The notes beneath the pieces are model-generated. The model saw only the letters and a list, made by a program, of their open reading frames with translations, made no database searches and was not told where the DNA came from. The position numbers were made by a program, and so were the translations under genes. Shown here piece after piece: positions 3,230-63,514 of a stretch of DNA of 64,000 nucleotides. This stretch comes from Monarcha castaneiventris obscurior (lineage: Eukaryota > Chordata > Aves > Passeriformes > Monarchidae): the NCBI GenBank assembly GCA_026261815.1, contig JAMPIT010000884.1, positions 11,049,001 to 11,113,000 on the forward strand. Reading direction: 5' to 3'. Position 1 is the stretch's first letter. Every line of letters begins with the position of its first letter.

Positions 3230-3580
3230 GTTAGGCCAAAGACCCTGATTCCAGACAGCCTCCCAATATCCCCGTGCAGAGACCAACCTTCCAAGCAGCC
3301 TCCCACCTTCCAGAAGGCAACCATAATAAGCATCAAAAACCCTAGCCCTGCCCTCCCAACTGCCAACAACACTGTCAGCCATGTACAGGCACCCAACAGC
3401 CAGTCACAAAGTGTCACTGAGCCCACAGCTCTTTCATCCCCTCTGAGTGGTGCTGGTGTGGCCTACGCAATCATTTCCACCTCCCCCAGCAATGCAGCTC
3501 CGATCAGCACCAGTGCCACAGTCTCAGTGGTCAACGACAGCATTAAAGTGCAACCGCTTCTCATCAGTGCCGAGAGCAAG
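3230..3580 (+). CDS. PHF21B: PHF21B coding exon (first in window), Ser/Thr/Pro-rich region
   Basis: The acceptor is tgtttgtag at 3221-3229 and the donor is gtgagt at 3581. The 351 bases are 117 whole codons, starting [12 protein letters not shown] and ending PLLISAESK. The segment is rich in Ser, Thr, Pro and Val, contains [13 protein letters not shown], and looks disordered. It matches the region of PHF21B that follows the LPQ-VRPK junction, so at least one coding exon lies upstream. Some human isoforms carry an extra Pro/Ser-rich segment directly after this exon; I see no clear equivalent before 5331. Confidence 0.96.
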
Positions 3581-27500: not shown

Positions 27501-29543
27501 ATATCTCTCCATGACTGGAAATGGATTCACAACTATTTTGTCTCTCCAAACTTATTTCAAAGCTAAATGTTGTCTGGGGGTGTCTCCCACACATACTGTG
27601 CTATGTCAGAGACAGCAGTCTCTGGCTGAATGGGCTAAATTCAAAGCCGTAATTCCTACCCTTCATGGCTGAAGGAACTGATTTGGGACTACCTCCCTCC
27701 TAAGAGGTAGCTGTTAGTTTGCATGGCAGTCTCAATAAATATTTGACACTTCCTGACCCTGGAAAAATCAAAGTGGCAGCTGCAGGAGTAACTGGTCACT
27801 GCTTGTTTTACCATTGCAGTTATTCAGAGGAGGCATGTTAAAATATTTATCACGTAAAACAGAGTGGAAGGAAAAGCAATAACTTATTAAAAGACATCAC
27901 TGTGGGGAATATTCTCTGTACATGTTTATAGCACTAATGGAACCACACGTGTATCTAGTAGGTAGGAGAGTGCAGTGGGCTGAGGAATTTGGAAAAAGAA
28001 AAGCTGTCAGCCATTCAGGTGTGTGTCACAGCTGTCAAAATCAGTAAGATTTCTACCTAAGCAGAATCGGGTTCATTCAGTGGGCAGCACTGTCTTATTT
28101 AAATGGTAATATCAGCCAATGATTATATTTATTGGAAATGTATCCACTTGAAATGAGAAAATAAATTAAAAGTGCCTCAGCACAGAGCAGTTTCATTCTG
28201 ACATTTTAACAGAGATTTTTATGAAAAAGAACACTCTCATACACCCAATAGGTGCAATGGTAAAAACAGAAGATGATTTATCTTTCATCTGAAATTTCAT
28301 ATCTCTAAACCAACCTCCAAGCAGCTCCACACAATTGCTTTCCAAACAAGTTTATTTTCAAGTGAGCATTTCCCAATTCCCCAGGACTGGAGAATCCCCA
28401 CCCCCAGGCAGTCTGGACCATAGCCAAAGAGGAGCAATCTGCAGACAAGTAATTGGTTTGGCCAGAATCCTGGGCACACTGGGAGAAAGAAAACAAGTTT
28501 CAGATATTAGAGGGCACTGTCCCTTTCCATCTCACAGGCAGACTCAGGGTTTGGGTCTGTTCCTCACAGAAGAATGGGGTGCTGGATGCAGCAGTCCATG
28601 GTTGGGAAGGGAAAGGAGAATTACTGATTTTTCCTCTCTCTTCATGGAGAAATGGAAAATTTGGGATGCTTTTGTTTAGCTCCTGCTCTTGTGCCCATTT
28701 GCACAGAGTTTTGTGTGGAACATTTCAAGTGATCACAGGGTGCAATTTGGCTACCCTGAGGAACAAAAGCTTTCTTGTGACTGCTGTGGTATTAACAGTT
28801 GTGTCTTGGAACAAAGTTATCTGCCAGAAAAATATTGGTATCATGTTCAGTGAGATTAATGGATCTTCACAGTGCCTATTCCCTGAAATGTGTGGCACAT
28901 ACGAAATACCTTCTGGTGAGGTTCACCCATCAAGTACTTATCAGGGTCCTTTGGTGAGAGTGAGAGACCTGAGTGGTGCCTTCTGTATTTTCAGTAACAC
29001 AGCTATTGCACTCCCATGCCAGGAATCTCTGTGGAGTCCAGAAGGCATTCCTCCATCTACAGGATGGAGTCGGAAATGTCTTCCAAATGTGTTTCACCTG
29101 GGAAGAATATTGTTCCCTCAGACAGCTGCTGCAGTGTGTGCAGCACTGGTGATTACTCCATTTGTTAAGCTGTGGTTTTGCTTTCCCTGAAGGAGAATAT
29201 ACTTCATTTGAGCAGAATGTGCACTCAAGGCACCAAAGGATGGTTGTAGAGATGTTTGACACCACTCTGAATGTATTCTCAGTCTTTCCTTCTCTCTCCC
29301 CTTCTCTTTATTTGACAGAAGTGCTTAGAGCTAAAAACCAGCCTGTTGGCCCAGCAGAAAGGGACTCGGTCATCACTGGAACGTCTCAAAACCCTCGTTA
29401 GACTGATACAAAATGAGCAGATGATTCAGGTTACCATGACGACGACCACCACCACCTCCCTGCTATCCATCCCTTGGATCAAACCCTCCCCTGCCTGTGC
29501 TGCAATGCACAAAGACTTGCAGCCATCACAGGGTAAAAACTGA
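3230..29543 (+). CDS. PHF21B: PHF21B (PHD finger protein 21B), 3' ten coding exons, partial
   Basis: The coding exons are 3230-3580, 5331-5453, 10457-10508, 16845-16921, 19625-19679, 23581-23603, 24915-25073, 25782-25857, 26952-27055 and 29319-29543. All have AG/GT borders and compatible phases, giving 1245 bases: 414 residues and a TGA. PHF21B is a nuclear chromatin protein, paralogue of PHF21A (BHC80), a subunit of the LSD1-CoREST repressor complex. In the window-encoded part, residues 1-117 are Ser/Thr/Pro/Val-rich and residues 145-160 contain a Lys-rich stretch. Residues 176-190 are basic (SKRQERKRR). The PHD finger spans 228-280 and a Lys/Glu/Leu coiled coil runs from about 306 to 372. 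I call PHF21B rather than PHF21A because of [23 protein letters not shown] and [12 protein letters not shown], and because no AT-hook (GRPPK) lies between the linker and the PHD finger. N-terminal exons and promoter are outside the window. Nothing suggests inactivation. Confidence 0.97.
3581..5330 (+). other. PHF21B intron
   Basis: No supported coding exon. In some human isoforms extra Pro/Ser-rich coding sequence is used at this junction; nothing comparable stands out here. Confidence 0.65.
5331..5453 (+). CDS. PHF21B: PHF21B coding exon, VIIIQPQ and Lys-rich segment
   Basis: The acceptor is tgtcttttag and the donor is gtgatt. The 123 bases encode 41 residues, beginning [11 protein letters not shown] and ending with a Lys-rich patch KKKKEENPE that could contribute to nuclear localisation. 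Phase is 0 on both sides, so skipping would keep the frame. Confidence 0.95.
7680..7760. repeat. GTTT/G-rich simple repeat and T-run
   Basis: A run of GTTT units (about 7687-7709) passes into a G-rich stretch and then a T-run near 7749-7757. Low-complexity intronic DNA. Confidence 0.8.
9754..9811. repeat. 29-bp tandem duplication (two copies)
   Basis: A 29-base unit starting gaagatacgttttgtgcata occurs twice head to tail (9754-9782 and 9783-9811) with one visible mismatch (atacag versus atatag), indicating a recent local duplication. Confidence 0.9.
10457..10508 (+). CDS. PHF21B: PHF21B coding exon, [11 protein letters not shown] helix
   Basis: The acceptor is ttttttccttag and the donor is gtaaga. 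The 52 bases encode [17 protein letters not shown] plus the first base of a Glu codon. This short hydrophobic segment is shared by PHF21A and PHF21B (LAFMVSLGLVTHDHLEE in PHF21A). A CR1 fragment begins about 60 bases downstream in the intron. Confidence 0.96.
10570..10870 (-). mobile_element. CR1 LINE fragment (old, - orientation)
   Basis: The + strand reads as the complement of CR1 ORF2 3' sequence: a gagaaggagattccacagcc motif followed by cctccctggg, then the segment around tggcctctcatcctgtcact. It is diverged, 5'-truncated and without the terminal microsatellite, so it looks like an older copy. Confidence 0.75.
13310..13833 (-). mobile_element. Solo LTR of an endogenous retrovirus (copy A), TSD TTAAT
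   Basis: On the - strand the element begins TGTCCTAGATTACAATG and ends CTAGCACA. It is flanked by TTAAT on both sides (13305-13309 and 13834-13838), a perfect 5-bp target duplication. It aligns along its length with the LTR at 36884-37360, sharing tgtcctag-ttacaat at the 5' end, tgtgagatgctctgc in the middle, ggatataa as a TATA-like box, and gatctcccactggtttgttttc at the 3' end. At 524 bp with no internal viral sequence it is a solo LTR, antisense to PHF21B. The 5-bp duplication fits an ERVL-like family (inference). Confidence 0.9.
16845..16921 (+). CDS. PHF21B: PHF21B coding exon, basic linker
   Basis: The acceptor is ggttacag and the donor is gtactt. The 77 bases complete the split Glu codon and encode [11 protein letters not shown] then [14 protein letters not shown]. 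The basic cluster is likely a nuclear localisation or nucleic-acid contact segment (inference). [11 protein letters not shown] distinguishes PHF21B from PHF21A, which has NPVYSG followed by a different tail. Confidence 0.97.
16922..19624 (+). other. PHF21B intron
   Basis: A 2.7 kb AT-rich intron without recognised repeats, exons or RNA genes. Confidence 0.7.
19625..19679 (+). CDS. PHF21B: PHF21B coding exon, [11 protein letters not shown]
   Basis: The acceptor is ttttccttgtag and the donor is gtaagc. The 55 bases encode [18 protein letters not shown] plus one base of the next Ala codon. In PHF21A the corresponding position leads into an AT-hook exon; no AT-hook is present here, as expected for PHF21B. 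Confidence 0.96.
20194..20330. repeat. AT-rich TTATT/TATTA low-complexity repeat
   Basis: About 135 bases composed almost wholly of A and T, with repeated tatttatt and attattta units and partly palindromic ttaaataata segments. Confidence 0.9.
22540..22842 (+). mobile_element. CR1 LINE 3' fragment (+ orientation)
   Basis: The sequence reads through the end of CR1 ORF2 (ggtttagactggatatcaag, then a gttcttcccccagagggtagtgg motif) into the typical 3' UTR, ending ccttccagcttaggatattc and tgtgattctatg. It is 5'-truncated and same sense as PHF21B. A long open frame overlapping it is a by-product. Confidence 0.88.
22938..22964. repeat. Poly-T tract
   Basis: An uninterrupted run of about 27 T shortly after the CR1 fragment, likely to vary in length between individuals. 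Confidence 0.9.
23581..23603 (+). CDS. PHF21B: PHF21B 23-base microexon
   Basis: This tiny exon has acceptor tatatgctag and donor gtatgt. With the carried-over G it encodes ANEDPFWK, immediately before the PHD exon. Its 23 bases are required to join phase 1 (19679) to phase 0 (24915). Skipping it would shift the frame ahead of the PHD finger. It is supported by family sequence (ANEDP-WK in human PHF21B). Confidence 0.94.
23604..24914 (+). other. PHF21B intron
   Basis: 1.3 kb between the microexon and the PHD exon, with no recognised repeat or exon. Confidence 0.7.
24915..25073 (+). CDS. PHF21B: PHF21B exon encoding the whole PHD finger
   Basis: The acceptor is cttctcttgcag and the donor is gtaagc. 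The 159 bases encode 53 residues containing the complete Cys4-His-Cys3 zinc pattern: CTAC, CGMC, HLNC and CPKC (window residues C236, C239, C248, C251, H256, C259, C274, C277). Acidic HDE lies just before the first Cys, where PHF21A uses acidic residues to read unmodified H3K4. The Met that lines the PHF21A pocket just before the third Cys is Pro here (LQPC), a PHF21B feature. Both flanks are phase 0, so the domain is a skippable module. Confidence 0.98.
25074..25781 (+). other. PHF21B intron
   Basis: 0.7 kb, AT-rich, with a short tract of repeated gctaatctgt/gttagcataa words near 25500-25550. Nothing else recognised. Confidence 0.7.
25782..25857 (+). CDS. PHF21B: PHF21B coding exon after the PHD finger
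   Basis: The acceptor is gggcttatag and the donor is gtaggg. The 76 bases encode [19 protein letters not shown] and YVTHKT plus one base of Val. The [13 protein letters not shown] stretch is strongly conserved between PHF21A and PHF21B and links the PHD finger to the coiled coil. Confidence 0.97.
25858..26951 (+). other. PHF21B intron with CR1
   Basis: 1.1 kb intron whose 3' third is a CR1 fragment in - orientation (separate entry). Confidence 0.7.
26608..26880 (-). mobile_element. CR1 LINE 3' fragment (- orientation)
   Basis: The + strand starts atagaatcccagaaccattt then aggttgggaaggaccacc, the complement of the CR1 3' tail. It continues into the ORF2 end, which on the - strand encodes [20 protein letters not shown]. 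5'-truncated and antisense to PHF21B, it ends roughly 70 bases before a PHF21B splice acceptor. Confidence 0.9.
26952..27055 (+). CDS. PHF21B: PHF21B coding exon, first half of coiled coil
   Basis: The acceptor is tgttacacag and the donor is gtagga. The 104 bases encode [20 protein letters not shown] and continue with a Gln/Leu/Glu-rich helix to AVK. The spacing of hydrophobic residues in a charged background suggests an amphipathic coiled coil. A CR1 fragment ends within roughly 70 bases of the splice acceptor. Confidence 0.96.
27056..29318 (+). other. Last PHF21B intron
   Basis: 2.3 kb. It contains an unusually long open frame on the + strand (28453-29190) that I do not recognise and regard as probably non-coding. 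No repeat was identified. Confidence 0.6.
29319..29543 (+). CDS. PHF21B: PHF21B last coding exon and stop
   Basis: The acceptor is ttatttgacag. The 225 bases encode 74 residues and [23 protein letters not shown] and [14 protein letters not shown] finish the coiled coil. The tail is low-complexity, with six consecutive Thr codons (ACG ACG ACC ACC ACC ACC) and ending LQPSQGKN. Human PHF21B ends comparably (…HPQGHN), which supports this stop as the native terminus. Confidence 0.96.
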
Positions 29544-45139: not shown

Positions 45140-45331
45140 TTAAGGTAAGATCTCTCCAGGCACTGTTCGGGAGTTGAATATATTCATGTAGAAATCTATC
45201 AGCAGTTCAGTGAAGAGATTCACAGGTACCAGAGCGCACAGGGAAGTGGTTCCTTTCAATGGCCAGATCAAACCAAACACACAGGCCAGGCTGGATGCTG
45301 TCATTCTGTTATGGATGCTCTCCTGTGAAAC
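45140..45331 (-). pseudogene. ARHGAP8: ARHGAP8 last exon: C-terminal RhoGAP segment, FGxNLxW damaged
   Basis: The acceptor is gttttgccag. The exon starts [20 protein letters not shown], continues [10 protein letters not shown] and [20 protein letters not shown], and stops with TAA at 45142-45140. It is open throughout. Human ARHGAP8 has FGLNLIWP where this has FGLIWP, a six-base in-frame loss removing Asn-Leu. The Asn is conserved in RhoGAP domains and contributes to GTPase interaction. It is shorter at the C-terminus than the human protein, which continues with a Pro-rich tail. Confidence 0.93.
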
Positions 45332-45834
45332 CTGGCAAAACATAAACATGAATAGGTATATGCAGACAGGAGACAAGAGACATGATCCTGTATTGAGGAG
45401 GAACCAATAAGAGGAGCAGACCCTGGCCATGGGGTTCATCACTGGTTTCTTACCCTCAAGGCTGACAAGGCAGCCTAGAGCAACAGGGGCACTGGAGGCT
45501 GTGTCCTTTGAATATAATACAAGATCAAGCAAAAAGGCTGAATTTTTTCCTTGTGCTAGAAAATTAATTGTTTTCAATCTTTCTGTCATAGAATCTATTG
45601 TTATCTCTGCCGGGATGGGGAAAAACAGCATAAAGGAATTTATTCTGCTTCAGATGACATCAGTTCAAACAAGAGCTCTTCATACCACAGCAATGTAGCA
45701 AAAGCTAAGCTAGTGCCAAAATTTCTGATGAGGGAAAATGATAAGAACAAAGAGCACTCTGTTAACAAGGAGACACAGAATGAGGTATTGCCCTGAAGGT
45801 AGCTGGACAATGAAATGGTGTTTGTTTACGAAGA

Positions 45835-46223
45835 TGTCGCAGCCGCCAGCTGGAGAGTAAAGAAAGACTCAGAGACAGGAATGCAGTCCAGCGAATAGAT
45901 GGAATTATTTAATTAATAATGGACGGGTTTTTATGTGTTTAGTTCTCTTAGTGTCTACCTAGATGGCAAGAGGTTATTGGACCTCTTGCTAACTAACTAC
46001 CAGAGTGATTGGTCAGTTAACACATCGTTCATTCTCCTAGTCAAGATCATAACAATTCTAATTATATCTGCAGGTGCAAGATAGCAAACTCGGTTTACAG
46101 AAACCTTATCATGTTTTGCATAGTTCAGCATGAGAAAGACAGCTTTCACGAACTACTGCAGAAAGCTGGAGAACTCAATCCTCTGCTGAGGCTTCCTCAG
46201 CATCCATATTAAGAAATATGACA
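45835..46223 (-). mobile_element. Probable solo LTR (- orientation)
   Basis: On the - strand the segment runs from TGTCATATTTCTTAATATGG to CTCCAGCTGGCGGCTGCGACA. It has TG/CA termini and an internal CATAAAAACCC TATA-like motif, and its 3' end resembles passerine ERV LTRs as I remember them. I could not find a clear target-site duplication, so the outer border near 46223 is uncertain. Confidence 0.6.
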
Positions 46224-47749
46224 AGGTTGGGGGCAATATTACTCTGTAATATTGTACACTGGGGATCATGGACAAATTATTTTTTGGTGGTTCTTTCAGT
46301 GGAAAGTCTCTAAAATATCGTGAGAGCTACAGCCCATCACACTTTATTTTCTATAGCACAAGGAAGTGCTGTACCCTAAGAAAGGTACCTTAAGTGTACA
46401 TAAGGCAGGTACTCTGGAATGGCACAAGAGCATGTGGTATAGTACTGGAGGACAGTGGAGGCTGCAAGAAACCAAACCTGTTGCAGTTGTATTCACCCAG
46501 TTTTTGGGAGTGCTCCTGACACCTTCCAAGGTGTATATAGGAGCTTCTTCAAGTGCTACCTGAAATACAGACATCTTACTCCAGATGCTGCTTTGGAAGG
46601 CAAATATTTCAGCTCAAAGCAATACCACTGTGACTTGCTGTAGAGCTAGATTTAATTTCTTTTCTTCATGTTAACTCTTTCAAAGAATGTTCCCAACTCC
46701 AAAATTATACCATGTCTTCCCACCTGCAACCACTCTATAAACATTTCAAGGAGACAGTCGACATAGAAATGATCAACAAAAATACCCACAACACAGCATG
46801 TCGTCTTAGAAAAAATCCTGACGATTAAATGAAACAGTCATTTTATCAACTGAGGCAGAGCTTCACTAAGCCTTATCTGTGAGTCATTAATGGGGATGGC
46901 TTAGGAGCTCAAAGCAGACATGGCAACATTGCTTCATTCTAAAATATATAGCAATCCCTTCCTTAGTAGATACAAGAAAAAGTGTGCAAACCAACTCACC
47001 AAAAGCTGCAAGCAAGGAAACTTTGCCACACTAATGGTACTGGCTTTATCCCTTTCCAAAGGAATCAGGCTTCCTACCATCTCAACCCCCTCACTACTCT
47101 CAGTGCCAGATTTCTTTCTCAAAGGTTATGAACGATATATATCAACTCCATCTACACCACCAAAAGCAGTTGATGAGTTCTTCCAGCCCTAGATCCTATA
47201 AGGATAGCATGCAGCTAGCCAACCTCTTCATGGGCTGCCTGTCTGAATAACTGCAACCCAAAGCTACATTCTAGCTAAGAAATACAAAAGGCACATTCAG
47301 CATTTAGAATTAACTCCCTTGCCTCCTTCTTTGATTCCATCACTAAGTTAGTAACTGTCATCTCTGTTTTAATTGAAAATACATGCTCTGTCAATTTGAT
47401 GAGCTAATAAAATTTTCCAAATACCTAGATCATATCCTTGAAGCAATCATCTGAACATCACAGGAAAGGATCACTACAAAGAACCACACAGCTCCACTTT
47501 GTGAGGCTTTTTCTCCCTTTCACTGAAACATATATAGAAAAATCATTAAGTAATGACAGCCTATATTGTACGGAAGTCATTTATAGAGATACAACTTGTA
47601 CTTTGCAAAAATCATACTTGGGAACAAACACTGAAGTTTTGGTGCCACATCACCAAATGCAAAAGATATATGTTCGCTATCCCAGAATAAATATCCAGCT
47701 CCTCCTAGAAAATTGTGATGATTTTTGATACCACATACTTTCACCCCAG

Positions 47750-48712
47750 CACACTCATGGATTCATTTGGTGGCTGGTCACAAGTGGTGTCCTCAGGGCT
47801 CAGTACTGAGGAAGGTCCTGTTTAATATCTTTATTGATGATCCAGATGAGGGGATTAAATGCACACCCAGTCAGTTCAGAGAAGACACTGAACTGGGCAG
47901 GAATGTTGATCTGCTGCAGGGCAGGAAAGCTCTGCAGAGGGATGGGCTGAGGCCTCAGTAGTCTGAGGTTCAACAAGACCAAGTGCTGGGTCCTGCCCTT
48001 GGGTCAGACCAACCCCCTGCAGCTCCAGGCTGGGGAAGAGGGGCTGGAAAACTGGGAAAAGGGGGTAGCTGGATATAAGTCCAGGTATGCCCAGGTCAAG
48101 AGCCCAGGTATGCCCAGGAGCAAGAGGCCAATGGCACCTGGGCTGTCCCAGCCAGGTGTGGCTACAGGACCAGGGCAGTAACTGTTCCCCTGTGTTTGCA
48201 TTGCTGAGGCCACACCTTGAGTCCCAAGGGCAGTTCTGGGCCCTCATGACAAGAAAGACATTGAGTGGCTGGAGCATGTCCAGAGAAGAGAACAGTGCTG
48301 GGGAAGGGTCTGGAGTACCAGAAGCAGTCGAGGGAGCTGTGGGGGCTCAGTCTGAAGAAAAGGAGGCTCAGGGGGGACCTTCTCACTTGCTACAACTCCC
48401 TGACAGGAAGGTGCAGCCAGGTGGAGGTTTGGCTCTTCTGTCATGTCTCAAGCAAAAAGACTAGAAGAAATAGCCTCAAGTTGTGCCAATTAGAAAATAA
48501 TTTTTCACTGAAAGAGTGACAGTGGTCAGACACTGGAATAAGTTGCCCAGGGAAGTGGTGGAGTCACCGTCTCTGACAGTGTTCCAGAGGTGTCTGGATG
48601 TGGCACTTGGGACATGGTTTAGCGGTGATTATGGTAAAGCTGGGTTGATGGTGGGACTCGATCCTGAAGGTCTCTTCCAACCTTGATAATTTCATAATTC
48701 ATGGATACCGCA
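47750..48712 (+). mobile_element. CR1 LINE with degenerate reverse-transcriptase C-terminus
   Basis: The frame at 47725-47961 contains TSGVPQGSVL followed by LFNIFIDDPDEGI, the CR1 reverse transcriptase core. The catalytic FADD box is changed to FRED (SQFREDTELG), so it is inactive. Further CR1 ORF2 and 3' UTR follow with internal deletions, ending gaaggtctcttccaaccttg, ataatttcataattcatg. About 960 bp, 5'-truncated, antisense to ARHGAP8. Confidence 0.9.
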
Positions 48713-49164
48713 GGAGTGAAGCAGTCACTACCTAATGAACTTAAACTGTGAAATACAGAGGGCAGAAACAGCCAATTACTATCATGTTTTAAAAATATAA
48801 CGACATCATCATCTCTTTGGTTGCTGAATTACAATGCTGAAAGGAACTCTGCAAAACACTTTCAAGAGAAAATTAACAGATACTAAAACACCCCCACAAA
48901 CTGACTGAAATTTAAATTTCTACCACCCACTGTCAGCTACTTTGCAGACGTGCCAATTGCTTCTATCTGCTCCGTGAGGCTTAGTGATCTAATCCTTCCC
49001 AACATGCCCCATCATCTCCAGCCACCCCTAAGCTTTACTGCAGGTAATTACACTTTTCAATTGGACAAGTGGTTGAGACAAAACATTAATTCAGAGCAAT
49101 TTTGTCCAGCTTGCATTTGGTTTTAAATTTGCTCCTTTGGTTGTAGATCTGAAGCACAGCTCAT

Positions 49165-50102
49165 GGGGGTTTTTAGGAGTTGTCCTGTTTTTTCTCTTAA
49201 AGAATTTTCCCTATATATGTTGCCAGGGGGACAAATTGCTAGGTGCTTAAGAAAAACAAAAGACCTGGCCACAGGGGCAGGGTTCCAACCAACTACTTGT
49301 CTTTCACCTGGGGGGTTGGGTACACAGGAGGCTGGCTGGTGTTCTCGGCGTGCAGAGAGCTGCCATCGTGGTGGAAAGTAAGCACTGCAAGCTTCTTTTT
49401 CGGCTGCCTTCTTTCCACGGGAGAACCCCCGGGATTCCCAAGCTCACCTTTCCCTGCCCCGCTGGGAGCTGGGCTGCAGCCGCCCTGCCCCCATCATTGC
49501 TCGGAGCCGTTGCTACATCGTAGTCCGCACACCCTGCCAGCCGAGACCTCCCGAGGTTCCTGCTGCAGCTCCGCAGTTTGATACATCCCGCCTGCCACCC
49601 GGGATCTGTGCTCGTCTCTGCTGTTCCAGCCTGCTGTTCCCGAGGGTCCGGCCGGACACCGGGATCAGCTGCCCAGGTGTTTGTGAAGCTTTTTGTCCAT
49701 CCCTCCCGGGACCCCAGGCCGCCATTGCCGTGTGCTCCCCGAGCTCGCTCCGGAGCGCCCCCTGCAGCCGCGGGGGAACCATCGCACCCGCCCTGCTCAC
49801 CGGGGGCCGCCAGCGCCCCTGCCGGCCGTGAGCGGAACTGCACCCAAGGGAAAGGGCCCGGCAGCCAAGAAGGCCGGCACTGGGTTTGTGGTTCTGTTTG
49901 CTGTTACGGCCAGTTATTGTTGTTTGTTTGTGTTGTTATATATATATATATATTAGTAAAGAACTGTTATTTCTATCCCTTATATCTTTGCCTGAAAGCC
50001 CCTTAATTTCAAAATTATAACAATTTGGAGGGAAGGGGGTTGCATTTTCCATTTCAGGGGAGGTTCATGCCTTCCTTGACAGACACCTTTCAAACCAAGA
50101 CA
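49165..50102 (+). mobile_element. Long GC-rich solo LTR (+ orientation, approximate 5' border)
   Basis: The 3' part reads ttgcctgaaagccccttaat, ttcaaaattataacaatttg, then an aggggaggttcatgccttcc stretch and ends caaaccaagaca at 50102. I associate this with a common passerine ERV LTR. The upstream part (gttgtcctgttttttctctt … gccagggggacaaattgcta) belongs to the same unit. The centre (49390-49870) is rich in G, C and CpG. A (TA)n run is at 49937-49954. No target duplication was found, so the start is an estimate. Confidence 0.75.
49937..49954. repeat. (TA)n microsatellite inside the LTR
   Basis: About eight TA units in the U3/R-like part of the LTR just before the agtaaagaactgttat segment. 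Confidence 0.9.
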
Positions 50103-52689
50103 GGCCCCAGACCTTGTCCATTTTCTATGATCCTGGTCCAGGTTTGACAATTTGAATTTGGCAAATTTTTGCAATGGTTCTTTCAGGAAAGTCATCCACC
50201 ATTCTCCCACATCAGGTGTGACTGCAGGGACAGAAGTCAGCAGCAGGTAGGGAAAATGTAAGCCTCTACAGACTCTCCTGCTTCTTTAGCCTTAGACTGT
50301 CTTGGAAAAATACAATTATAGTGTTCTTCTAAATGGTTTCTGGCTTCAGAACTGGGTACCTGTAGCCCTCAGAGTGTTTTGCCAAGAATTCTTCTTTGCA
50401 AGGAGATTTCTTTGAGCCCTTGAAGTTTGCATGTGCGTTCATCACTCCACTGCCAGTGCACACTCATCTCTCTTGCAATCAGCTGAGCAAGCACAGAGAT
50501 GTTTCACAGGCATTATTCAGGGACTAGCTTGTGAAAACTGGTCTGTCTTTGCCCTCTTGCTCCTGGTTGCCCATTTCTGCCAATGGACCTCAGCCCACTG
50601 CAGCTTCAAGAAGACCCTGCAAATCATTCTCTAGCAGCCAGGTGGACTGCTAAGTAGAGATGGGATGGTTTATACCTTTCACCACTGGGCTCATTACTGG
50701 CAAAATCACTACTAATCTAAAGTTAAAGAACTTGGACCTATTTTTGAAATTCAAGTCTGTTACTTCTTTACAAGTTGTACTGTCTTGCTGTAGCACTCTT
50801 GGAGTACAAGGAACTGTTTCATTAAGCAAGAGGGTTGAGACTGCAGAGAAAATAGGGATATTTTTTTTTCTTCTTTCACAAGCCTGTATCAAACTTGGAG
50901 TGTTCAAAACCTGTATCTAGTGCTTAAAATTCATCCCACTTCATGAAATTGCTACAAGTACTTTTTGCACCACCCAAAACTTAGCTCATGAAAGAATTAA
51001 ATTGCCTCTTATACGTAAGGCAGAAGGTTGATGCTTGCAGGTAAGAACTGGGATTATTGTTAAAGTATGAATTGTGGAAGCTTGTGCAGCACACCAATCT
51101 GCAGTGAATAGAAATCCCTAGCTCTGAGAATGTTTCATGTTCCCCTGACCTTTCCAAATGCAAATATACCCTGAGACATTACAGAAGAAAACCCATGGAT
51201 CAGCAAAAATTGCAGATCTGAGCACTAGTATCACTTGGTGCTGTGCTTGACATAACAAAGCCTACTTAAAAATAAGGCTATATTCTGTTGCCCAATTGCA
51301 GAAAATATTGTGTAGTACTTTTGCACACCTTATTAACATATCAAGAGCTCAGCTCTTAAGAAATGCATTAAGATGATGCATCTACTGCTGGAACAAAGTA
51401 GTAAATTCATAACTTAGACTATTCATAACACTGAGGAGAGATATCAGTTGCTAAAATAATAGCAAATGACATGAGGATTTCCTTAATAGTTTTTTTCAGC
51501 CAGGCAACAGTAAATGAAAACATGAGTATTACAGCAACTGCTGGTTATATCAATGTGTTTATCCTTTAATCTTTCTTTTTGCTAGTATTTTGACAGAAAA
51601 AGGGATTAAATGCACTTGTTTCTGAAATACACTGTTGACTAGAATATGCCAAACATGACTGTAGCTCAAGAAGAGCTACTGAGGGCCAATTACCTCACTG
51701 GTGAAAATCAGTATCATTCCCCAGACATGACTACTGTGGTGGGTTCTTAGGGCTTTTGAAGGACAGACCACTTGCTTCAGGTGTTAGCTACACCAGGACC
51801 CTTCATTTCAGGTTTGAAAACTGCAGTCTGAAAAATGCGATGCATTGGATAAGGTAGAAGGAAGGGAAATATACAGCCCTGTGACTTTTTCTGCACAGCC
51901 AAACTATGCCACAAGGCTGAATGTAGAACTATTCAAGAGCTGATGTTCCCCAAACCCTCAGACTCACGGGTTTTCCAGAAATGGGTTAAAAGAAATCATC
52001 AAATCAAAAAGTAGGACAGAAGACATGTGATTTAATTTATCCTGGAACATAAAAAAATCCTTGCAAAATCCTTACATTTTAAGTTTTTCATTTAACACTA
52101 GTAATGAATGGCTATTTTAAACAGGAAAATGCTATTTTAAAGATTAAATATGATTTTTTTTTTCTGATGGTTGTTCTAAAGCTTATTAATATAATTTTCT
52201 AAAATAACACTAATTTATTTGGTGTTCTAGTTGCCCAAGATCTATACTTCAGGGAAAACAGATGATTTCACCTGTTTTCCCCAGCACCTAAAATTACACA
52301 ACCACTATTTTCCTGCTTTTTTCATGCCAAAATAGGAAAAAAACCCCACAAAACTAAATAAAAAACAACATACATTGTGAATGTGGAGTGAAGGAACAGG
52401 ACTTGTAAATATACCAGCACTGGCACAGTTCATTTAAATGTGCACAGTAGTTTCCATGACATCTGAAAAATTTCATGGTGAAGGGATGGCCAGACTACGG
52501 CTTTTCACTGACTTGTATCACAGCTGGAGGGCTCTGTACCCCAAATTCAGTCTACTGACAAGTACTGTACAATCACCTCACCAGACTATTTAAACTATTC
52601 AGTTTTGCCTTCTATGGAGGTGTTAAATTTTGAATTTACAAGAGCAGATTTAGAAATAAAATTATTTTGAAAATTTTGCCCATACTCAC

Positions 52690-53168
52690 CATATGGAGAA
52701 AGCATATCAGATGTTACAGAACGACATAATTGTGTTCAGGAATAATACTGTAATTGCCTGGCTCTGTGGGATCCCATGTGCCCCCACAGGTGCCTGGGCA
52801 GGTTCAGTATTAAGTCCATGACAAAGACATTCGGGAAGGGTATCTGCTTGCATTCCAGCAGGATTTATTCATCTTCACTGTCGAAGCATGCAGAAGCAAA
52901 TACCAACAGTATGGCTAACGCAGGGTTTTTCCCGGGGCCGGGGGAAAGGCAGGACCAGGGAGCGGGGACCAATGGGAGAGCTCTGGGGGAGTGAACAGGC
53001 TGACAGACAATTGCGGAATTCAAATTGGGACAGGTCATCCCAAAGAGCAATGCACCTCGGGGGGAGCCCCTCCGGTCACCCCAACACAATATAAGTTCAC
53101 CGGCCACCACACAGGAAGTCCTTGAATGATTCGTTTGCATCTGGTGACTCGTAAACAGCTCTCCACAC
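52690..53168 (-). pseudogene. ARHGAP8: ARHGAP8 exon d, split by a solo LTR and carrying a stop
   Basis: The upstream half (53168-53112) encodes VESCLRVTRCKRIIQGLP. The downstream half (52742-52690), beyond the LTR, encodes EHNYVVL, a TAA stop (52716-52714), then HLICFLHM and a good donor gtgagt. Human ARHGAP8 reads [20 protein letters not shown] and continues NYVVLRYL, so the halves join exactly at the insertion. At the acceptor side the two bases before GTGTGGAG are GA, not AG. Confidence 0.94.
52743..53111 (-). mobile_element. Solo LTR inserted in an ARHGAP8 exon, TSD CAGGAA
   Basis: A 369-bp element whose - strand begins TGTGGTGGCCGGTGAAC and ends CAGTATTA. The exonic hexamer CAGGAA (+ strand) is duplicated at both borders (52737-52742 and 53112-53117), proof of integration; six bases fit alpha/betaretrovirus-like avian ERVs. 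AATAAA on the - strand at 52869-52864 supports LTR sense equal to gene sense. The element contains CCATTGG and a GC-rich stretch. No viral coding sequence is present, so it is a solo LTR left by recombination. Confidence 0.92.
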
Positions 53169-53285
53169 TCGCAATGTCAAAGTCATTCTTAACTCTGAAG
53201 CACCACAATATTACCAAGAAATAATACCTTATTTATATCAGCTGGAATTACTTTATATCCATCTGTAAAACTGACCACAAAATTC

Positions 53286-53340
53286 AGCTCTACTAATCAC
53301 AACCACAGTCACAACCACAGCTCTACTAATCACAACCACA
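53286..53340. repeat. Duplicated 22-bp word
   Basis: agctctactaatcacaacca (plus ca) occurs at 53286 and again at 53319, with cacaaccacag in between. A local duplication. Confidence 0.85.
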
Positions 53341-54237
53341 TTCAAATATTCCTTTGAATGCCTCTGTCATATTTTGTATTATTATGTATCTGGCTAAGAC
53401 TAATGTCTAGAGTATTTTCTCAATGCAGGAAAACAGCCAAAACAATTTTTTTCTACACAAGACTTCCAAAGGTCTTGATTTGAATCTCATTATCTCTCCA
53501 TGCACTGAATTGAGACATCTACTTTTTATTCTCTGATTTTATTCTTGCTGAGACATAGTCCTGCTCAAAGTGCTATTTTGGTAATCTACTAACTGAAAAA
53601 ACCCCACTTTTGTCACTCTGCCAGAAATTCTTTTGTCATGGGAAAGAATTTATGAGACGGACATCTGAGTGGCTGAGAATTTTCTGGAGATGAACCTAAG
53701 CAGGTTCATTTCTACAGATGGGCAAAACCAGATCTGGACCCCAAATTTCTTGCATCATCTAGACAGTCCAGGTGAGAATTACTCTGACACTCACATTTCA
53801 AATCCTGTACCAAGTGACTCTTTTTTCCCCCCGGGATACTTTAATTATTTAAGTACTGTAAGTTTAACACCAGTTTGGAGAAAGATCTGATGATGCTAAT
53901 CATGCAAACCTAAAGCATCCCATTTTTGCTGATACTTTTTCTGCATCTGTTGCATTTCTCTCTCTTTTCCTGAGAGTTCTGCACATGGATGTGTGTGCAT
54001 ATACAAAATTTCAGCATGTTAAGTGTTCTTCAAGCACTGAACCAAATGCATGAAGCTTTACTGTGATAAACTGTAGTGACATTTTTCCCACCGCAAAACT
54101 ATCAGTTCCCATAAAACGCACTAGTCTGTATCCGAAGAAGTATTTTTGTCAGCTTTCTGCAGAATAAATAATGCAGGAAGTGTAGCAATCTTGGGTAAAA
54201 GAAATCTTGCTTGCAGTTTTCATGACCAAAGGTCATG

Positions 54238-54428
54238 AAATTTTATAAACTTTTTTATGTTTAAAAGCTTTTAATATAAGCTTATAAACTTTATATAAGT
54301 TTATTATATTTATTACATTTATAAGTTTATTATATGCATAAGTTTATAAGCTTGTATTTTATGCTTATATACTTATGTATACTATATATATATACTTATA
54401 TATACTCCTATAATTAAAATTATAATCT
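54238..54428. repeat. AT-rich palindromic tract
   Basis: Repeated units of tttataa, aagtttat and tatacttata form many short inverted repeats over about 190 bases. Confidence 0.88.
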
Positions 54429-55498
54429 TTTTATAAACTTCAAGGTTTTATTAATTTTTAAGTCTCTCACTCAGCTCATTTATTTCACGGCTCCCACCAG
54501 TAACACTTAAAAAAATTCAAATAAGACAATAAAGAGAAAAGTTTCACTATAATTTCAGAGTGCTGTAAAGCAGAAAAAGTACTGTATTTCTGGGCTTTCA
54601 GGTTAAGATGTGTAATAGATGCATCACACATACACATACACACACATTTCCAGACGACAGAATACAGAATGAGAATTTTCAAATTATCCCAAGACAGCTG
54701 TCTGTGATCACATCTCTTCAAAGCTTCCTTCTGCACTTTATTCACAGAGAAGGTACCTTTGCTGTGCTCCAGCTTGGCTTTTAAGCTTAAGATCTTTAAG
54801 AATTGGAATATCACCACAGCAGCAGTAAAAGACAGCAGACATCATACTACATGCACACAAGAAAGCCCAAGGATTAATTCTTTTAAACTCCACTTTTCAA
54901 AATATTTTGTCAAAATTGAAAACACAAGTAAACAACAATAACATGGGATGAATGTTCCACAGGCACTTTGCCAAGCAAAACCTTCTGGTGTTCCTAGACA
55001 ATGCACTGCCCTTAGATTATTTTCAGACTTGTTCACATTTTTTACTCTCTCACAAAGTAAAAATATCACACCCAGAAAGTCAGAACAAGATTAATTCAGT
55101 AAAAATTAGCATTTATGCATCCATTTTCCAAACTTCCCCTATTCTTTCTAGTTCTGAGTGACTATCCTTAGTCCCTCAACTTCCTGTGAACAGACGTGTT
55201 CTTCAGAATGCCCTGAGATATTGTGTGAACAGAGGAATCCTTGATTTGGAAAATGCATGCTCATGACTGGAAGCCCGCTGGGTTCCCTGATAGCTTGGCT
55301 ATAGCCTGGATGGCAAAATCTTGTTCTCTGTATGTAGGTACTAACTCCCAGATATTCTGGGATCTCAGGTGTTCCAGCCCCATGCATTAAAGGGCATTAT
55401 AAACTCCTACTCCCTGACAAAGGCTACATAATTAAGTTTTATAACTCATAGCTTTAGATCCTTTATTCCCCAGGACGTTATCCTATGGGAATAATTGC

Positions 55499-55665
55499 AA
55501 TGAAAAAATCAAACTAAACCGAACAAAAACCCCACAAACGAAAACCAAACCAAACAGAACAACCCCCCCCAAAAAACCCAAAACCCCGCAAAACAAAAAC
55601 AAAACAGAAACAAACAAACAAACAAAAAACCACCTCCCCCCAAAAAAAACACCTAAAAACAAATC
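55499..55665. repeat. A/C-rich (AAAC)n-like tract
   Basis: The + strand is nearly free of T for about 165 bases, built of aaac, aaacc and aacaaac units with runs of C and A. The - strand is correspondingly T/G-rich. Confidence 0.88.
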
Positions 55666-56097
55666 CCAAGAAACATATAAATATCTATTACCATTTAAAG
55701 ATCATGTAACCATCTAACTTTTGTTTCGACAATTCTGCTGCTGAAACTGAAGCTGCTTTGATGCAACTTGTATCACTGAGACTCACTCATTGCTGGGCCA
55801 TAACATACAAATGGAGCCCTGACTGTGTGAAGTCTGATCCAATTGTTAATAATACAGTAGAATATATAATAAACAGGCGAACTCTGTAAAAAGCAAAGAG
55901 GGCCTTGGCGACCTTGACTACAGTGCTCTGGTACAGATGATAAGGATCAGGCTGTCCGTCCATGGCTGCAGCAAAGTATTAATAATATTGTAAATCCACA
56001 ACTGCCCCTTGGTTAGCAAACAAACAGCAGTGATTTTGAATTAGCCAGGTCCAGTTCAAGCTGCTGTATAAATTTTTCCAACCATATATAAACTCAC

Positions 56098-56218
56098 TAG
56101 TGATTCTAAGGATATGATCATAACAGTCAAATGTTAGCAATGGCTGAGGCATTTCCTTAAGGAAAGTCTTCAGGATAACTGCAGGAATATGGATAATCAT
56201 CAAAATTCACAGACTTGC
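56098..56218 (-). pseudogene. ARHGAP8: ARHGAP8 exon c with 8-base frameshifting deletion
   Basis: The acceptor is ctccttttag and the donor is gtgagt. The exon opens KSVNFDDY, then [20 protein letters not shown] resumes in a different frame. Family members have Gly-Asp-Ile (9 bases) between DDY and HIP; only one C remains at 56192, so 8 bases are missing. The exon is 121 bases where 129 would preserve phase between its neighbours. The shifted frame meets TAA at 56159-56157. Confidence 0.93.
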
Positions 56219-56855
56219 CTAAAAGGAGAAAAAGAAGCAAAAAGGGTGTTCAATGATGTTTTACTTTTTCTTTAAACTGCTCCTTGAAAACTGTTTCATA
56301 CAACATTTTGAGCAGAAAATCCCTTGGCTTTCTGCTGCTGGTAACTCCTGATACTTTATTTTCGCATTTTTCATTTGCATAGAGCTTTATGAATTTTGCT
56401 AAAAGATGTTCTCCCCATAAAGGCAGTTCAAAAATGACTTCACAGGGAAGTCAGTGACTTTCACAATTACTTCACTACGTTTCATAAATTATTAGGTAAA
56501 ATTATATTTCTTTGCCATAACAAGAGGCAAGATGACATAGGGACTCTGTAACTACAGTAAAGTGCATAGACTCAATAAAATGTTTATTTAAAAATATACA
56601 ATTTTGGACTCAAACTTCATTAGCTGTTACAGATTTTTTACAGCTCTGGTGTGACATCAAGACATGACTTGCTATTCAGTAAGCATTTAAGTGCCTGTTG
56701 CTACGTCTCAGGTTCTGTACTAGTGCGCTTATTATTTTATGTTACAAATGGCTTTGATTACTTAGTTGCAAGAATTTGCATTTCTGCTTCACTAACAAAA
56801 CCAGGATGAACAAAGCCCTCACATTACTACTGGCAATGATATGATGACAGCTTAC
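56219..56855 (-). other. ARHGAP8 intron (short)
   Basis: 0.64 kb between exons b and c, with no recognised feature. Confidence 0.7.
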
Positions 56856-56933
56856 CCTGATTGTAGAGTTTCTGCGCATCTTTGATAGTCTGGATGCTGG
56901 CTGACCTCCTGAAGATGCCCTCTACTTGTAGTC
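56856..56933 (-). pseudogene. ARHGAP8: ARHGAP8 exon b: arginine finger (itself intact)
   Basis: The acceptor is ttttcag and the donor is gtaag. The 78 bases encode [20 protein letters not shown] then QKLYNQ plus a split Gly codon. GIFRRSA holds the catalytic arginine of RhoGAP domains. Frame and borders are intact, in contrast to the two exons that follow. Confidence 0.95.
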
Positions 56934-59900
56934 CTGAAAAATAATTTTGAAATTAAACAACTATAAAACAAATTTAAAAACCCCCACTGTTTTAAGGCAT
57001 TTTGGTGCAGAACGTTACTCCTTCCACTTCTCTGGAAGTCATTGGGACTCAACACTCTGCCTGTCCATGGTATTTTGAAATACCTGAGTCTAGTCTTGAG
57101 GCAGTTCTGAATTATTTATCATTAATCTCCTGAATGATATCTAACATTGTGGACTAACTGAAATCTGACTTCATCTAGAGAAGAAAAATGTCGACAAAGG
57201 ATCTCACTTGGACCTCAGCTTTCAAGGTAAATTATTTATCTGAATTATTATGCAAAACAGGATGGGGACAAGAACTGCTGCCTTTCTTGAGACTAGTGGT
57301 ACTTTTTGCTTTTTGAGTTTGGTAAAACTCTCATTTCCCTCTCCTTCTTTCCAGTTTGTGCTGTTCCTCACATCCAGCACATAATGTAATTTCACTCACA
57401 TGTTGTCTGAATTGGAAATTCCTACTGGAAGCAGAGTAATTAAAATATTAGCCTGTGCTGGTGTGATGAAACATAAAATTGCAGTTTTGAGAAGGCTGGC
57501 AGACTACCCATAGCCTTGGAGGCACTACTGTATGTTTCTATATGTGAGTGAGGAAGACCAGATTGACTTTCTTATTTTTTCATGCAGGTAAGTAGCCAGA
57601 CTGAAACATTTGAGTATTTCAATTAAAGTACACGTGGTTTTGGTTTCATGATCAAGAATCTTTACTGTGTACTAGAAAAATTGAATCATACATTAATGAA
57701 GGATACTCATTCATTCTTGCAAATTTACCCAGGTTGTAGATGTATTTCATACATGAAAAATCAGTAAATAATAACAAAATTCCTCAATGAACCCATCATC
57801 TAGTATTGTTCACATGAATTTAGGTCAGTATACTAAAAGAACTGATAACTACCACTGAAGTACATTTTCATAGACAAGTTTCAGGGACTTTTGCCAAGGA
57901 CCTCAAGCTCTACTGGAAAGTGCTCCACTGACTAGATTTAGAGGTTTGGCTGGAGTTCAGCTGAATACAGCTCCTAGTTACTTCCCAGGAATACATGCCC
58001 TTGCCTGTTTAATTGAATATTAAAATTTTAGCCCATGCACTCAGTTCTGGAAGTAGTATGACATCTCAAATTACCATATCTAAGCTTCTTAACATGTGTG
58101 GTTACTAAAGGAACTAAGTAACTATGGTATATTTGATGCCTGGCTTTACTCTCCATCGGATTGTGTTTCACTTAAATAAAGTTACAGCAAATAGCATCAC
58201 TGTAGTAAAACTGTTCCATTAGATTTATAGTACAACCTGTCTAAAGACATGGTTTTGGAAGTGGCAGCTGGAAACTGCTAGCTCATCAAGGCACTGTCCT
58301 CAGCAATTTTTTCCAGAGAATTTGTGAAATTTTATGCTGGCTATCAGTGGACTAGAGGTGTTCTGTACAAACAACTCTTTCAGAAAATGGATATCCAGAA
58401 ACACTTCCAATTTGGTTTCCTAGGTTAATAATTACTGTTTTTTATCTGATGTGAATCTTGTTGTAAGGGCTACAATGCAATAAATATCAATTATTAACAG
58501 ATTTATGCATTTATTGGCTAAGCTTTCAAGAGTCTTATTACAGACATTTATCTGTAGCACAAACAACAGCTGTACTTGTCTGGCCCTACATCCCATCAAC
58601 ATTACTGTAATGGCACATAGCACTAAGCTCTTGCTGGTTATGTTTTTGGAGAGGAAAAAGCAACTTTTATCTTCATCTGCAAAAAGTTGGGATACAGGCA
58701 GTATCTGTGCTTCTTCCAGAACTCACTTACTAGGCCAAGTGAAACTGAATCAATACACAGCAATTTGTTTGATCGCAGGTGGCAACAAGCCAACTACCAA
58801 AGTAAATATACCCAGTGCTTTTTACAACTGTAGGCAACCCAGCCAAATGACAGGACACATAATTAAGTGTAGGTTAGTGCAATTCTTAGGGAAAAAGAAA
58901 AAGTCATATTCTTCTATAGTAAATGAACCACAACAGCAAGAGTAACTTTTTTTTTTTTGCATATAAGATGCTCAGACCAGAAAATAAGAAATTAGAGCAA
59001 TTCTTAAATCAATCTAGGGTTCTAATTTCAGTCTCTGTTAAATAGAAATATGAGTCAAAAGCAATTATGCTCTTGATGGCAAAAAGAATGAGCCTGGGTA
59101 CACTGATGAACTGGGATATACATGAACTGAAAAGGGCACTTTGCTTTAGAAGTTTGTAAATCTATTAATTGCTCTCAGTGCTCTCTGTATTTAAGCTGGT
59201 ATGGGGAAAGCCACCTAAATCCACCTAAACATTATTTGAGAGGTGGCATTTCCCATGTCACAGAACCTGAACAGCATTAGCACATGCCCCCTACAAGGGT
59301 CTCATAACAAGCAATGGGAAGGAAGAAAGGGACCTGATGTCTCTTGTTAGATATTCCACTGTGATGGGTAAGTACACAGTCTTATAAGCCTGGAAACCTT
59401 CTCCAATCCTGAATCTTCCTTTTCAGACACTGGGGGAAAAACAACACAGATCTTAGAACCACCATAATTAAGTCAACACAAGTTGCACACACTAAAATAA
59501 AACTAATCACTGGGTCTTCCTTTTTGCAGACAAAATGCATGCTAAAGCCACCTGAGTCATAGGATGAGAAAACAAAACTGACGGAAGGCAATATTGATCA
59601 TTATAGCTCAAAGCATTAATTTTTGTCCTATCAAGAAATAATTTTGAAGCAATCTATTTAATTTTTGTTAGCAGTGTTCTTCGATCAAATCCTGTTTACA
59701 GCATGACCCCTTTCAGCTGTGTCTGTAAGAAGACTTCTTTTTCTGTGTGTACAAGTTGAGCTGTTTTGCCATGAATAGCATGAATAGCACAGCCCATATG
59801 GAATATCCACCCTGGAGTAGCAGTGCCAGAGCACTGCGAGGGGATGAGGGACATGAGGCTGGACTACCCAGTTCTGATGAACACTGTATGGTTTGGTCCA

Positions 59901-62900
59901 GAAGATGCTCTGAGGTTTAGTCTTAATAAGCTGATGATTCTTTCAGGTACTCAGAACTCATTTTAGGAAACCAGTTCTTCTCTGTGAAGGTTACAAAAAC
60001 TGAAATCGGAAATTTTTAAATACAGTATTAAAAACATTTTTTCACTCTAAAGTGGAGCTGGAATGAAAGTGGTGAGATGGCTACATTTTATTCCCTTTTT
60101 GAAAAAAACAACTTGCAAATTACAGAAATTAAGAAACTTCAGCTTATTGTGTTTATTGTAATACTGTCTGAGGCATGAGCTATAATAGTTCTTGTTTCTA
60201 AAATACAAACATATGTAGATGAATCTCTGCAAACAGCAAATTCTTTAGTCTCTGTAAAAGTCTCTGAGGGGCTTACTACCTGTATCCAGTGAGAGCCATC
60301 TTGGTCAGAAAGAGCTATCTAACTACGCAGTCAGATGAATGTAAATGTCTGATAAAGGTAAACTGGGTCCAAGAAGGGGAGTTTTGGCTCATTTGTACAG
60401 GTGACAGTGCCTCCACACTGGGAGGAGCTGCTACAAATAGAGGTGTCTGGAACTGAGGCACAAAATTTAAACATCAAGGAGGAAGACCGTGACCCCAGGG
60501 AATCTGTCAAAGGGACTGGGATCAGTAAGGTGAAAAAGGTCGGGTGAACTTTAGGGACTGAGAGCTTCCTTAGCCTGGACACACCACTGCGGGTGTGTAG
60601 TCTGAATAGCAGCACAGCTCCTGCACCACAGCTGCTCAAGAAATAAGAATCTGAGCAGTGCAGAATGGACTTAAAGGATGCCAGAGGGTCACTGATATTT
60701 CAAGAAATCCTACTCTGTTGATGAAACAGGATTTTGCAGAAGCTTCTGTGATCTAACTCAAAACTGACTTCAAGTACATAGATGTGAAAATGTAGCAATG
60801 GAAGAAAGAGTGGAACTACTGCACCTTGGGTGAAAACCAAACTCCACTCGCTGTTAACTATGCAAGGCTGAAAACTCTGCCAAAATCAAGTGAAACAGGG
60901 CAATGACAGTGAATTTTCTTCACTTCCAGAAGACAAACTGAAGCTTTCACTGTGCTTATGACCATGTCTGGAGTGCCAAGAATGCTACGAGTCACCCTCC
61001 CAGGGTTGTCAGCAACCCACAGGGCCAGCACTTGCTGGAGACGGCACAACTGATTATAGAGAGAGTTAAAATCACAGCAGACAGCAGGTATAACAGATAA
61101 CCTCCACACCTACAATCAATTGAAAAAAATGCATGTCTATCACATACTACTTGCCTTGGCATGGCAGGTACTTGGCTTTCAAGCATCAGTTGGCTGAGAA
61201 TATCAAAAAACACTCTACCTGACAAGGCATCTCTCTTTAGAAATCTGGTTTGTGGAAATCTCTTTATGACAGGGAATATGACACCTCTGAGCAAACCTGG
61301 CCTTGGCTGGAAAATAACAACATGGACAGAGCCCTGGACCCTTCTTCCTGAGGACACAGAGGGATTGAGAGCTGGGGAAAAATTATATAGTTCAGCTAAG
61401 AAGTGTTTGGACGGGACTATGTGTCAGTGGCCAGCACTACAACACCTCTGACTTCTGAAGATGCACAAAGTAGGACAAGAAGTCTCATCACATAGGAGTC
61501 CATCCATTACGAGCTGTGCTGATACTGCTTTGAATAGATGAAATTTTAGCCAAAAGTAGACATGGTTTGCAGAAAACTCAAGGATGATTACTGCTTTCAG
61601 AATGACAAACATTTCATCAAGGAGAAATTCTGCAGTGATGAAGATGAGCCAACCCTGTTATTTTTTTAACCATAATCATCGTAACTTGCTTTTTTTTCCT
61701 CTACAACATTTGGTGTTGCTGTTTCAGAAAACTGTGGGTATCTGAGCTGACTCAGCAGTTGTTGAGGGTTAATAGTATGAAATTGGTGCAGCAGTGATGA
61801 GACAAAACGCCCAGAAAAAACAAAAGCAAGACACAGAGGGTTTGTGTCAGATCAATGCAAGACTAACTAGTTATTGGTCACTAACACAACATAATGATGG
61901 CCATAAACCCTCTGTTTCTTTAAAATATTTAAATGGGCCCAAGAAAGTACCAGAATGCAAAGCCTTCCTCATTTGCACAGGCAAAAGTTTAATTAGCATT
62001 TTATGGCTTTATTCTCACTCAATTTCTAAGTAATAACAGCTGTAAGAGATAATAATGTTAGTGCCACACTCACCCTCATCATAGCTCTCTTGACTCCTGT
62101 GATTAGTGAGGAAGAGGTATTTGCCTATTAAGACAAGCTAAGTATATGGAAGGATGATTGTTTCATAACAATTTAAAGCACAAAAAAAATCTGGCTTTCA
62201 TCTGCTGATGGGGCATGCACTGATATACGACACAAGCTCAATTACCCACTTATGATTATCACAGGAATGCCACTCACTTGCATTCGACATTCTTAGTAGT
62301 GAACTATTTACATTCCCTGTATTCAACCATAATATTTGGTACAAGCTACACCTGCAAAGTTTTCATAATCAGCACCACTCTGGAAACAGCACATCCAAAG
62401 ACCTTTATGGGTCTGAGTGGAAATCCTGAATTTGGACCATGAAGTGTTCAAAAAGGTCTGTTAGGAACTCTTCACCTACTGCAGAACTCTTCACCTTTAA
62501 TAGCAGAACTGGACCCACTGCAGCACTTGGCATTGGCTATTGCAGCTATTCTGAAGTTAAATCAGCAATTTTAGGGGCAAGGAGCCAGCTATTTTGTACT
62601 CAAGCATCCCTACAGATGCTCCACTACTTGCACACTCTAAGGTACAGCAGATATCTCTCTTATTCTCCCATACCCATCATTAATCAGGTACATTTAAGGT
62701 ATGAAATACACAACAAAAAATAGTGGTCAGTTATTTAATGTTCTTATTTATCCTGAGATAAACTAAAATATGAAGGAGCATAGCCTAGCAATGAGGGCAA
62801 ATATCAATGTTGTCTGTCCTCAACTAAATACGTGTTATCTTGCATTGACCTAATGGAAGTCAGGATTTCTCTTGAAAATTAGCAGTAAAGCTGAGAAGCA

Positions 62901-63440
62901 ACGTTCTTCTTGCCTGCCTCCTTTTGTCTTCACAATTGAAAAGCCTATTCAGCACAAGTTTTTAAAAATGTTTGTAATTTATCATTTAGGGTTTAAATAA
63001 ACTCAGGCCAAACCTTGGTGGAAATAGTTAAAATTAACCCATACTAAGACACACATTGTTTGAATAATGAAAGGGAAAACTAGAATACATTTATTTTTAT
63101 TGGACATTCTACTTAATTCAAACACTATTTTATGGGTTTACAATGCATATTTCAAGACACTGCTCAGATTTGCTGTTTCCTAACCAATCCTAAGAGAAAA
63201 AAACTTCTTGGTTTGGGTTGTTTGTTTTTTTTTAATAAGACAGTATCAGACAATAATCTGATAATAATTATTTTCCATCCTCTCATGGCAGCACCCAATT
63301 GCCACTCCAGTTCCAGTTCTCAGGACATAAACATATCCTGTGTAGTTGTAATCTTTGCTGTATCAGGAATTGAGTGTTAAATAGTTTCATACTATTGTTC
63401 TTGTTCAGAAAAACCCATCCTCTTTTGACACAGAACTCAC
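56934..63440 (-). other. ARHGAP8 intron (6.5 kb)
   Basis: Separates exons a and b. Contains several open frames up to about 146 residues with no recognisable similarity and no recognised mobile elements. Confidence 0.65.
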
Positions 63441-63514
63441 CTTTACTTTTTAGAAAGGATACAGTTTCCTTCATTACTGGGGGGATTAGTTCACCTTTGG
63501 TTTTGTCCTTGATA
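63441..63514 (-). pseudogene. ARHGAP8: ARHGAP8 exon a: start of RhoGAP domain (itself intact)
   Basis: On the - strand the acceptor is ctccctgacag and the donor is gtgagt. The 74 bases encode IKDKTKGELIPPVMKETVSF then LKSK plus a split Gly codon, matching the human segment LKDKNQGELIPPV. Splice sites and frame are intact. It ends phase 1, which fits the next exon. Confidence 0.93.

Follow-up and report, generated by a model that had tools for sequence, protein, structure and literature searches.

STK33, as described in part of one published study, is a unitary pseudogene of neognath birds whose remaining exons carry insertions, deletions and stop codons; none of the 28 neognaths analysed in that study has a functional copy, and several large deletions have affected the gene (PMC4509753). 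We describe here the ARHGAP8 locus in a window of 64,000 nucleotides (the whole stretch analysed, from contig JAMPIT010000884.1), where another conserved vertebrate signalling gene appears to have decayed in place within a bird lineage. Unlike the case of STK33, our observation concerns a single genome, in which all five visible exons are still present and one of them is interrupted by an insert resembling a long terminal repeat (LTR). According to excerpts of a study on human cells, ARHGAP8, also named BPGAP1, inactivates RhoA, recruits Vav1 and Rac1, and is assigned a role in coupling Rac and Rho in cell migration (PMC10011724). Our results suggest that the ARHGAP8 locus in the window, from an oscine songbird, is the native one and that the gene has probably been lost. 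The locus is likely a unitary pseudogene, and a recent loss is plausible.

The homology searches used the joined translation of the five exons as query, with X placed at the lesions. This translation matched the Pfam RhoGAP domain (E 9.5e-37), ARHGAP1 as the best solved structure by sequence (E 2e-48), and bird ARHGAP8 in two protein searches (best E 3.9e-101 and 5.2e-107), and therefore a chance match is not at issue. Among the matches listed from a set of 5.8 billion proteins, the closest named proteins were bird ARHGAP8 with 86–89% identity, some partial or oddly modelled bird records scoring lower (59% for Columba guinea, 79% for Zosterops). These listings hold the best 120 matches with one name for each 90% cluster, so that P0047 stands for 207 sequences and P0083 for 126. 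The ARHGAP8/BPGAP1 proteins of Donacobius (P0137), Empidonax (P0048) and Aptenodytes (P0047) are 87–89% identical to the window copy, with an unchanged order of domain segments and a similar C-terminus, but they are open through the RhoGAP domain whereas the window copy is broken at five sites. ARHGAP1 (p50RhoGAP, P0026) shares the RhoGAP domain and the arginine-finger motif GIFRRSA with the window gene but is a paralogue with 45% identity to the joined translation; against the 86–89% of bird ARHGAP8, this rules out ARHGAP1 or another RhoGAP paralogue. The gene also lies convergent with PHF21B, an arrangement that human 22q13 also shows and that we take to be ancestral. Judged from these sequence relationships, the five exons are the orthologue of ARHGAP8.

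A single residue indicates which birds are concerned. The Val of ALVPVNLF is found in the window and in all nine oscines with data, and Leu occupies this position in 16 of 16 other birds with data. The window bird is therefore an oscine songbird. Glu is absent from the window at two positions where it is carried by 4/6 and 6/6 of the oscines assigned to Sylvioidea, a weak hint against placing the bird in that group. No names from Passeroidea, Muscicapoidea or Paridae appeared among the best 120 matches, which is uninformative with one name for each 90% cluster.

All five RhoGAP exons are encoded on the minus strand and follow one another correctly from 63514 down to 45140; they were found at exactly the coordinates given by a first-pass annotation of this DNA, which had also placed them beside PHF21B (Table 1). 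That annotation had listed a frameshift, a premature stop, an LTR inside an exon, a lost acceptor and a lost Asn. The sequence bears these out, the LTR as an LTR-like insert and the acceptor loss as deduced from a related protein: across this junction P0043 has DFDIAGVESSLRV and the window DFDIASVESCLRV, and the DFDIAGVESS of P0043 fits an AG at the position of the exon d acceptor. In exon e, the Asn-Leu of FGLNLIW is kept by all 25 other birds with data, and the gap aligns in the structure-sequence match with GPNLL of ARHGAP1, whose Asn is an active-site residue. The sizes of both deletions, like the acceptor loss, were deduced from proteins rather than from the DNA of relatives. The five lesions are five separate events.

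A working RhoGAP domain cannot come from the window locus, because reading stops about one third into the domain, an acceptor is gone, exon d is interrupted and the active-site loop is shortened. Use of the new AG, which follows the lost acceptor by one base, would bring the total shift to nine bases (8 + 1); such a rescue of the frame was considered and rejected because the shifted frame already meets a stop within exon c. In exon d, the insert separates GLP from EHNYVVL. It begins with TGTGG, and the TG...CA ends expected of an LTR fit only if its last six bases (GTATTA, between TTACA and the second TTCCTG) are extra. No second copy was found in the window or in 282,540 bases of the same genome, whose assembly comprises at least 500 and fewer than 1000 contigs, and no LTR family could be named. 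The insert also contains AATAAA at 52869-52864, in the same sense as ARHGAP8.

Table 1. Features of the ARHGAP8 locus and of its neighbour in the window.
Feature	Position	Strand	Length	Remarks
ARHGAP8 exon a	63441..63514	-	74 nt	Start of RhoGAP domain; open; acceptor CAG and donor GT intact; translation IKDKTKGELIPPVMKETVSFLKSKG
ARHGAP8 exon b	56856..56933	-	78 nt	Arginine finger GIFRRSAS; open; splice sites intact; aligns with EGIFRRSA of ARHGAP1
ARHGAP8 exon c	56098..56218	-	121 nt	Broken by 8-bp deletion; both splice sites intact (acceptor AG, donor GT)
Frameshifting deletion, exon c	within 56184..56201	-	8 bp	DDYHDIHIP at this place in 24/29 other birds
Stop TAA in shifted frame, exon c	56157..56159	-		59 nt before exon end
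Former exon d acceptor AG	53169..53170	-		Now GA (loss deduced); next AG one base on would shift the frame
ARHGAP8 exon d, first piece	53112..53167	-		Translation VESCLRVTRCKRIIQGLP
LTR-like insert in exon d	52743..53111	-	369 bp	Gene sense; flanked on both sides by TTCCTG
ARHGAP8 exon d, second piece	52690..52742	-		PEHNYVVL*HLICFLHM; donor intact; opening six bases identical to the last six of the first piece
Premature stop TAA, exon d	52714..52716	-		Lys in 28/28 other birds with data
ARHGAP8 exon e, last coding exon	45140..45331	-	192 nt	Acceptor intact; natural stop 45142-45140
In-frame deletion, exon e	site 45263..45282, at 45269/45268	-	6 bp	Removes Asn-Leu of FGLNLIW
PHF21B coding exons, seven blocks	3230..29540	+		Convergent with ARHGAP8; synteny marker

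These observations can be accounted for if selection on the ARHGAP8 protein eased or ceased and the RhoGAP exons then accumulated the five lesions: two deletions, one shifting the frame and one, small, within the active-site loop, together with an inserted LTR, a nonsense mutation and an altered splice acceptor. Nonsense-mediated decay is governed by a 50–55 nt rule, and a transcript spliced through exon c, terminating 59 nt before the end of this exon, would be a candidate for such decay. The insert would moreover add a polyadenylation signal in the sense of the gene. That the upstream half is also dead, that there is no second copy of ARHGAP8, and which of the lesions came first are parts of this scenario that we infer.

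ARHGAP8 was present in the protein lists of birds, turtles, lizards, mammals, amphibians and fish. Predicted proteins open through the same exons were found in seven oscines (Donacobius, Cyanoderma, Origma, Alaudala, Malurus, Leiothrix and Cisticola), in Oreocharis and in three suboscines. Because seven oscines and three suboscines have proteins reading through the whole region, the loss of the RhoGAP domain of ARHGAP8 is, by these predictions, specific to a lineage, as the first-pass annotation had suggested. In Leiothrix (P0128) and Cisticola (P0149), Arg replaces the Trp of NLIWP. The Zosterops lateralis model (P0087) overruns the donor of exon b and leaves out the beginning of exon c, as though a lesion or a gap there were being avoided. 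The protein of Oreocharis arfaki (P0164) presents changes at 6/121 invariant RhoGAP sites, 11/124 differences from the consensus in its BCH part, and an arginine-finger motif that reads CRRP. It may be that ARHGAP8 is decaying in this second oscine lineage, and the 6/121 changes would then hint that the gene may have been lost repeatedly among oscines.

More generally, departures from the non-passerine consensus are about 2.5 times as frequent in oscines as in other Neoaves, and this in both halves of the protein. Differences in the BCH and proline-rich part amount to 54/1656 in oscines, 56/4503 in other Neoaves and 18/809 in suboscines, and in the RhoGAP part to 118/1824, 114/4491 and 32/802, respectively, suboscines being intermediate; the comparison is rough, changes shared by descent being counted once for each species, and it draws on 43 database proteins, many of them partial, of which 18 were masked where locally misaligned. 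A relaxation specific to the GAP domain across all oscines was ruled out, as both halves are raised by about the same factor.

We estimated the constraint on the visible exons from an alignment of 31 named proteins minus Dromaius (no anchor) and Scytalopus (too short), leaving 28 birds and Chelonia; aberrant segments in four of the proteins (Atrichornis, Falco, Zosterops and Cyanoderma) were masked by hand before building the tree and counting invariant sites. The window is changed at 7 of the 118 sites that are invariant in the 28 other birds. Eight other oscines, a baseline that omits Oreocharis and Atrichornis, are changed at 8/913 such sites, giving an expectation of 1.03 (Poisson P about 1e-4). 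Restoring Oreocharis (6/121) and Atrichornis (1/78) raises the baseline to 15/1112 and the expectation to 1.59 (P about 0.0013). In addition, 11 of 188 window residues occur in none of 29 other birds aligned. Exons a and b contribute 4 of these private residues over 52 codons and exons c to e contribute 7 over 136, with no deficit in the former (Fisher P 0.50); the excess therefore extends upstream of every lesion. Constraint thus looks relaxed across all visible exons.

Several results weigh against a loss of the gene. The comparison of invariant sites is made at the protein level and ignores branch length. On the protein tree, where the window groups with Oreocharis (no support value given), the terminal branch of the window (0.062) is only slightly longer than those of Oreocharis (0.057) and Malurus (0.056). 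Likewise, the window differs from the consensus at 18/188 positions, barely more than Oreocharis at 17/190, in a count from the same 43 masked or partial database proteins. No lesion falls in exons a and b, where the four replacements (N>T, Y>F, L>I and V>A) are all conservative, as would also be expected of a retained truncated protein. The splice sites are still largely normal (4/4 donors and 4/5 acceptors); the first-pass annotation had taken the intact donors and a still recognisable protein similarity as signs of a relatively recent loss. Finally, the openness of ARHGAP8 in other oscines comes from database predictions, which can mask lesions. The case for loss is carried by the lesions, not by the rates.

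Alternatively, a shortened ARHGAP8 made of the BCH domain and the proline-rich region may have been kept from upstream exons while only the RhoGAP half decayed. We consider this unlikely. Its product would still act as a scaffold for Vav1 and cortactin but would no longer inactivate RhoA, and we retain this reading as a rival because Vav1 binding is independent of GAP activity: the excerpted cell study reports that this binding needs no RhoGAP activity and that cortactin binds the proline-rich region (PMC10011724). The window holds only the RhoGAP half, and residues 1-231 of the 424-residue P0047, with the BCH domain and proline-rich region, are expected beyond base 64000; the upstream exons that such a protein needs thus fall outside the window. 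The position of every lesion in exons c to e, downstream of the open exons a and b with their conservative changes, also fits a truncated protein, but the rate of change in these two exons matches that in the others. Because the stop in exon c falls 59 nt short of the exon's end and further exons follow, the message is moreover expected to decay. The same excerpts indicate that a GAP-inactive protein lowers cell migration, so that a truncated form may be harmful (PMC10011724). If a truncated protein has nonetheless been kept, Rac activation would be uncoupled from Rho inactivation in a songbird.

The loss of the gene in place also has to be set against explanations in which ARHGAP8 still works in this bird. 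One of these is a dead duplicate accompanied by a functional ARHGAP8 elsewhere in the genome, which we regard as very improbable. The exons are separated by introns and lie beside PHF21B, in the place taken as ancestral from the human map; the locus therefore looks like the original copy rather than a processed or moved one. It is even harder to credit an assembly error or a single faulty allele in the sequenced animal. Five lesions of different types at five sites, together with replacements over all exons, cannot come from one error, and the independence of the lesions claimed by the first-pass annotation is borne out. Loss of ARHGAP8 in place remains the explanation that we favour.

The C-terminal peptide of exon e and its stop match the bird proteins P0002 and P0047. 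The first-pass annotation had further described PHF21B as fully intact. This claim was borne out in part: no lesion was seen in the seven blocks in the window, six of which were located by tblastn with a human PHF21B sequence and one by eye, but the first exons lie beyond the window and no full bird protein was compared. Two segments of the human query, its first part and its middle, gave no match in the window; they may represent an isoform or be inaccurate. The block recognised by eye, a PHF21B-like exon at about 5332-5453, was seen on reading 3100-7700 and resembles an exon of PHF21A. Two more LTR-like stretches were seen by eye in the last intron of ARHGAP8 (45835-46262 and 49200-50050), and 65 bases of the latter match another place in the same genome (L035) at 92%. 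An interspersed repeat with the appearance of CR1 was also seen by eye at 47900-48690, of which 48101-48434 is about 75% alike to 35352-35683. Scans of the window for tRNA genes and Rfam families found nothing.

Our searches of the open-licence PMC literature found no report of ARHGAP8 loss in birds. The one bird paper among those listed concerns chicken granulosa cells and mentions the gene once. Since unitary pseudogenes of birds are already known, the inactivation of ARHGAP8 adds a new example of a familiar kind of gene loss and no new kind of biology. The LTR-like insert in exon d could also be used as a marker to map the loss onto the songbird phylogeny. If the loss of ARHGAP8 is true, a healthy bird lineage without this gene would constitute a natural knockout, revealing which of its roles in Rac and Rho signalling are dispensable.

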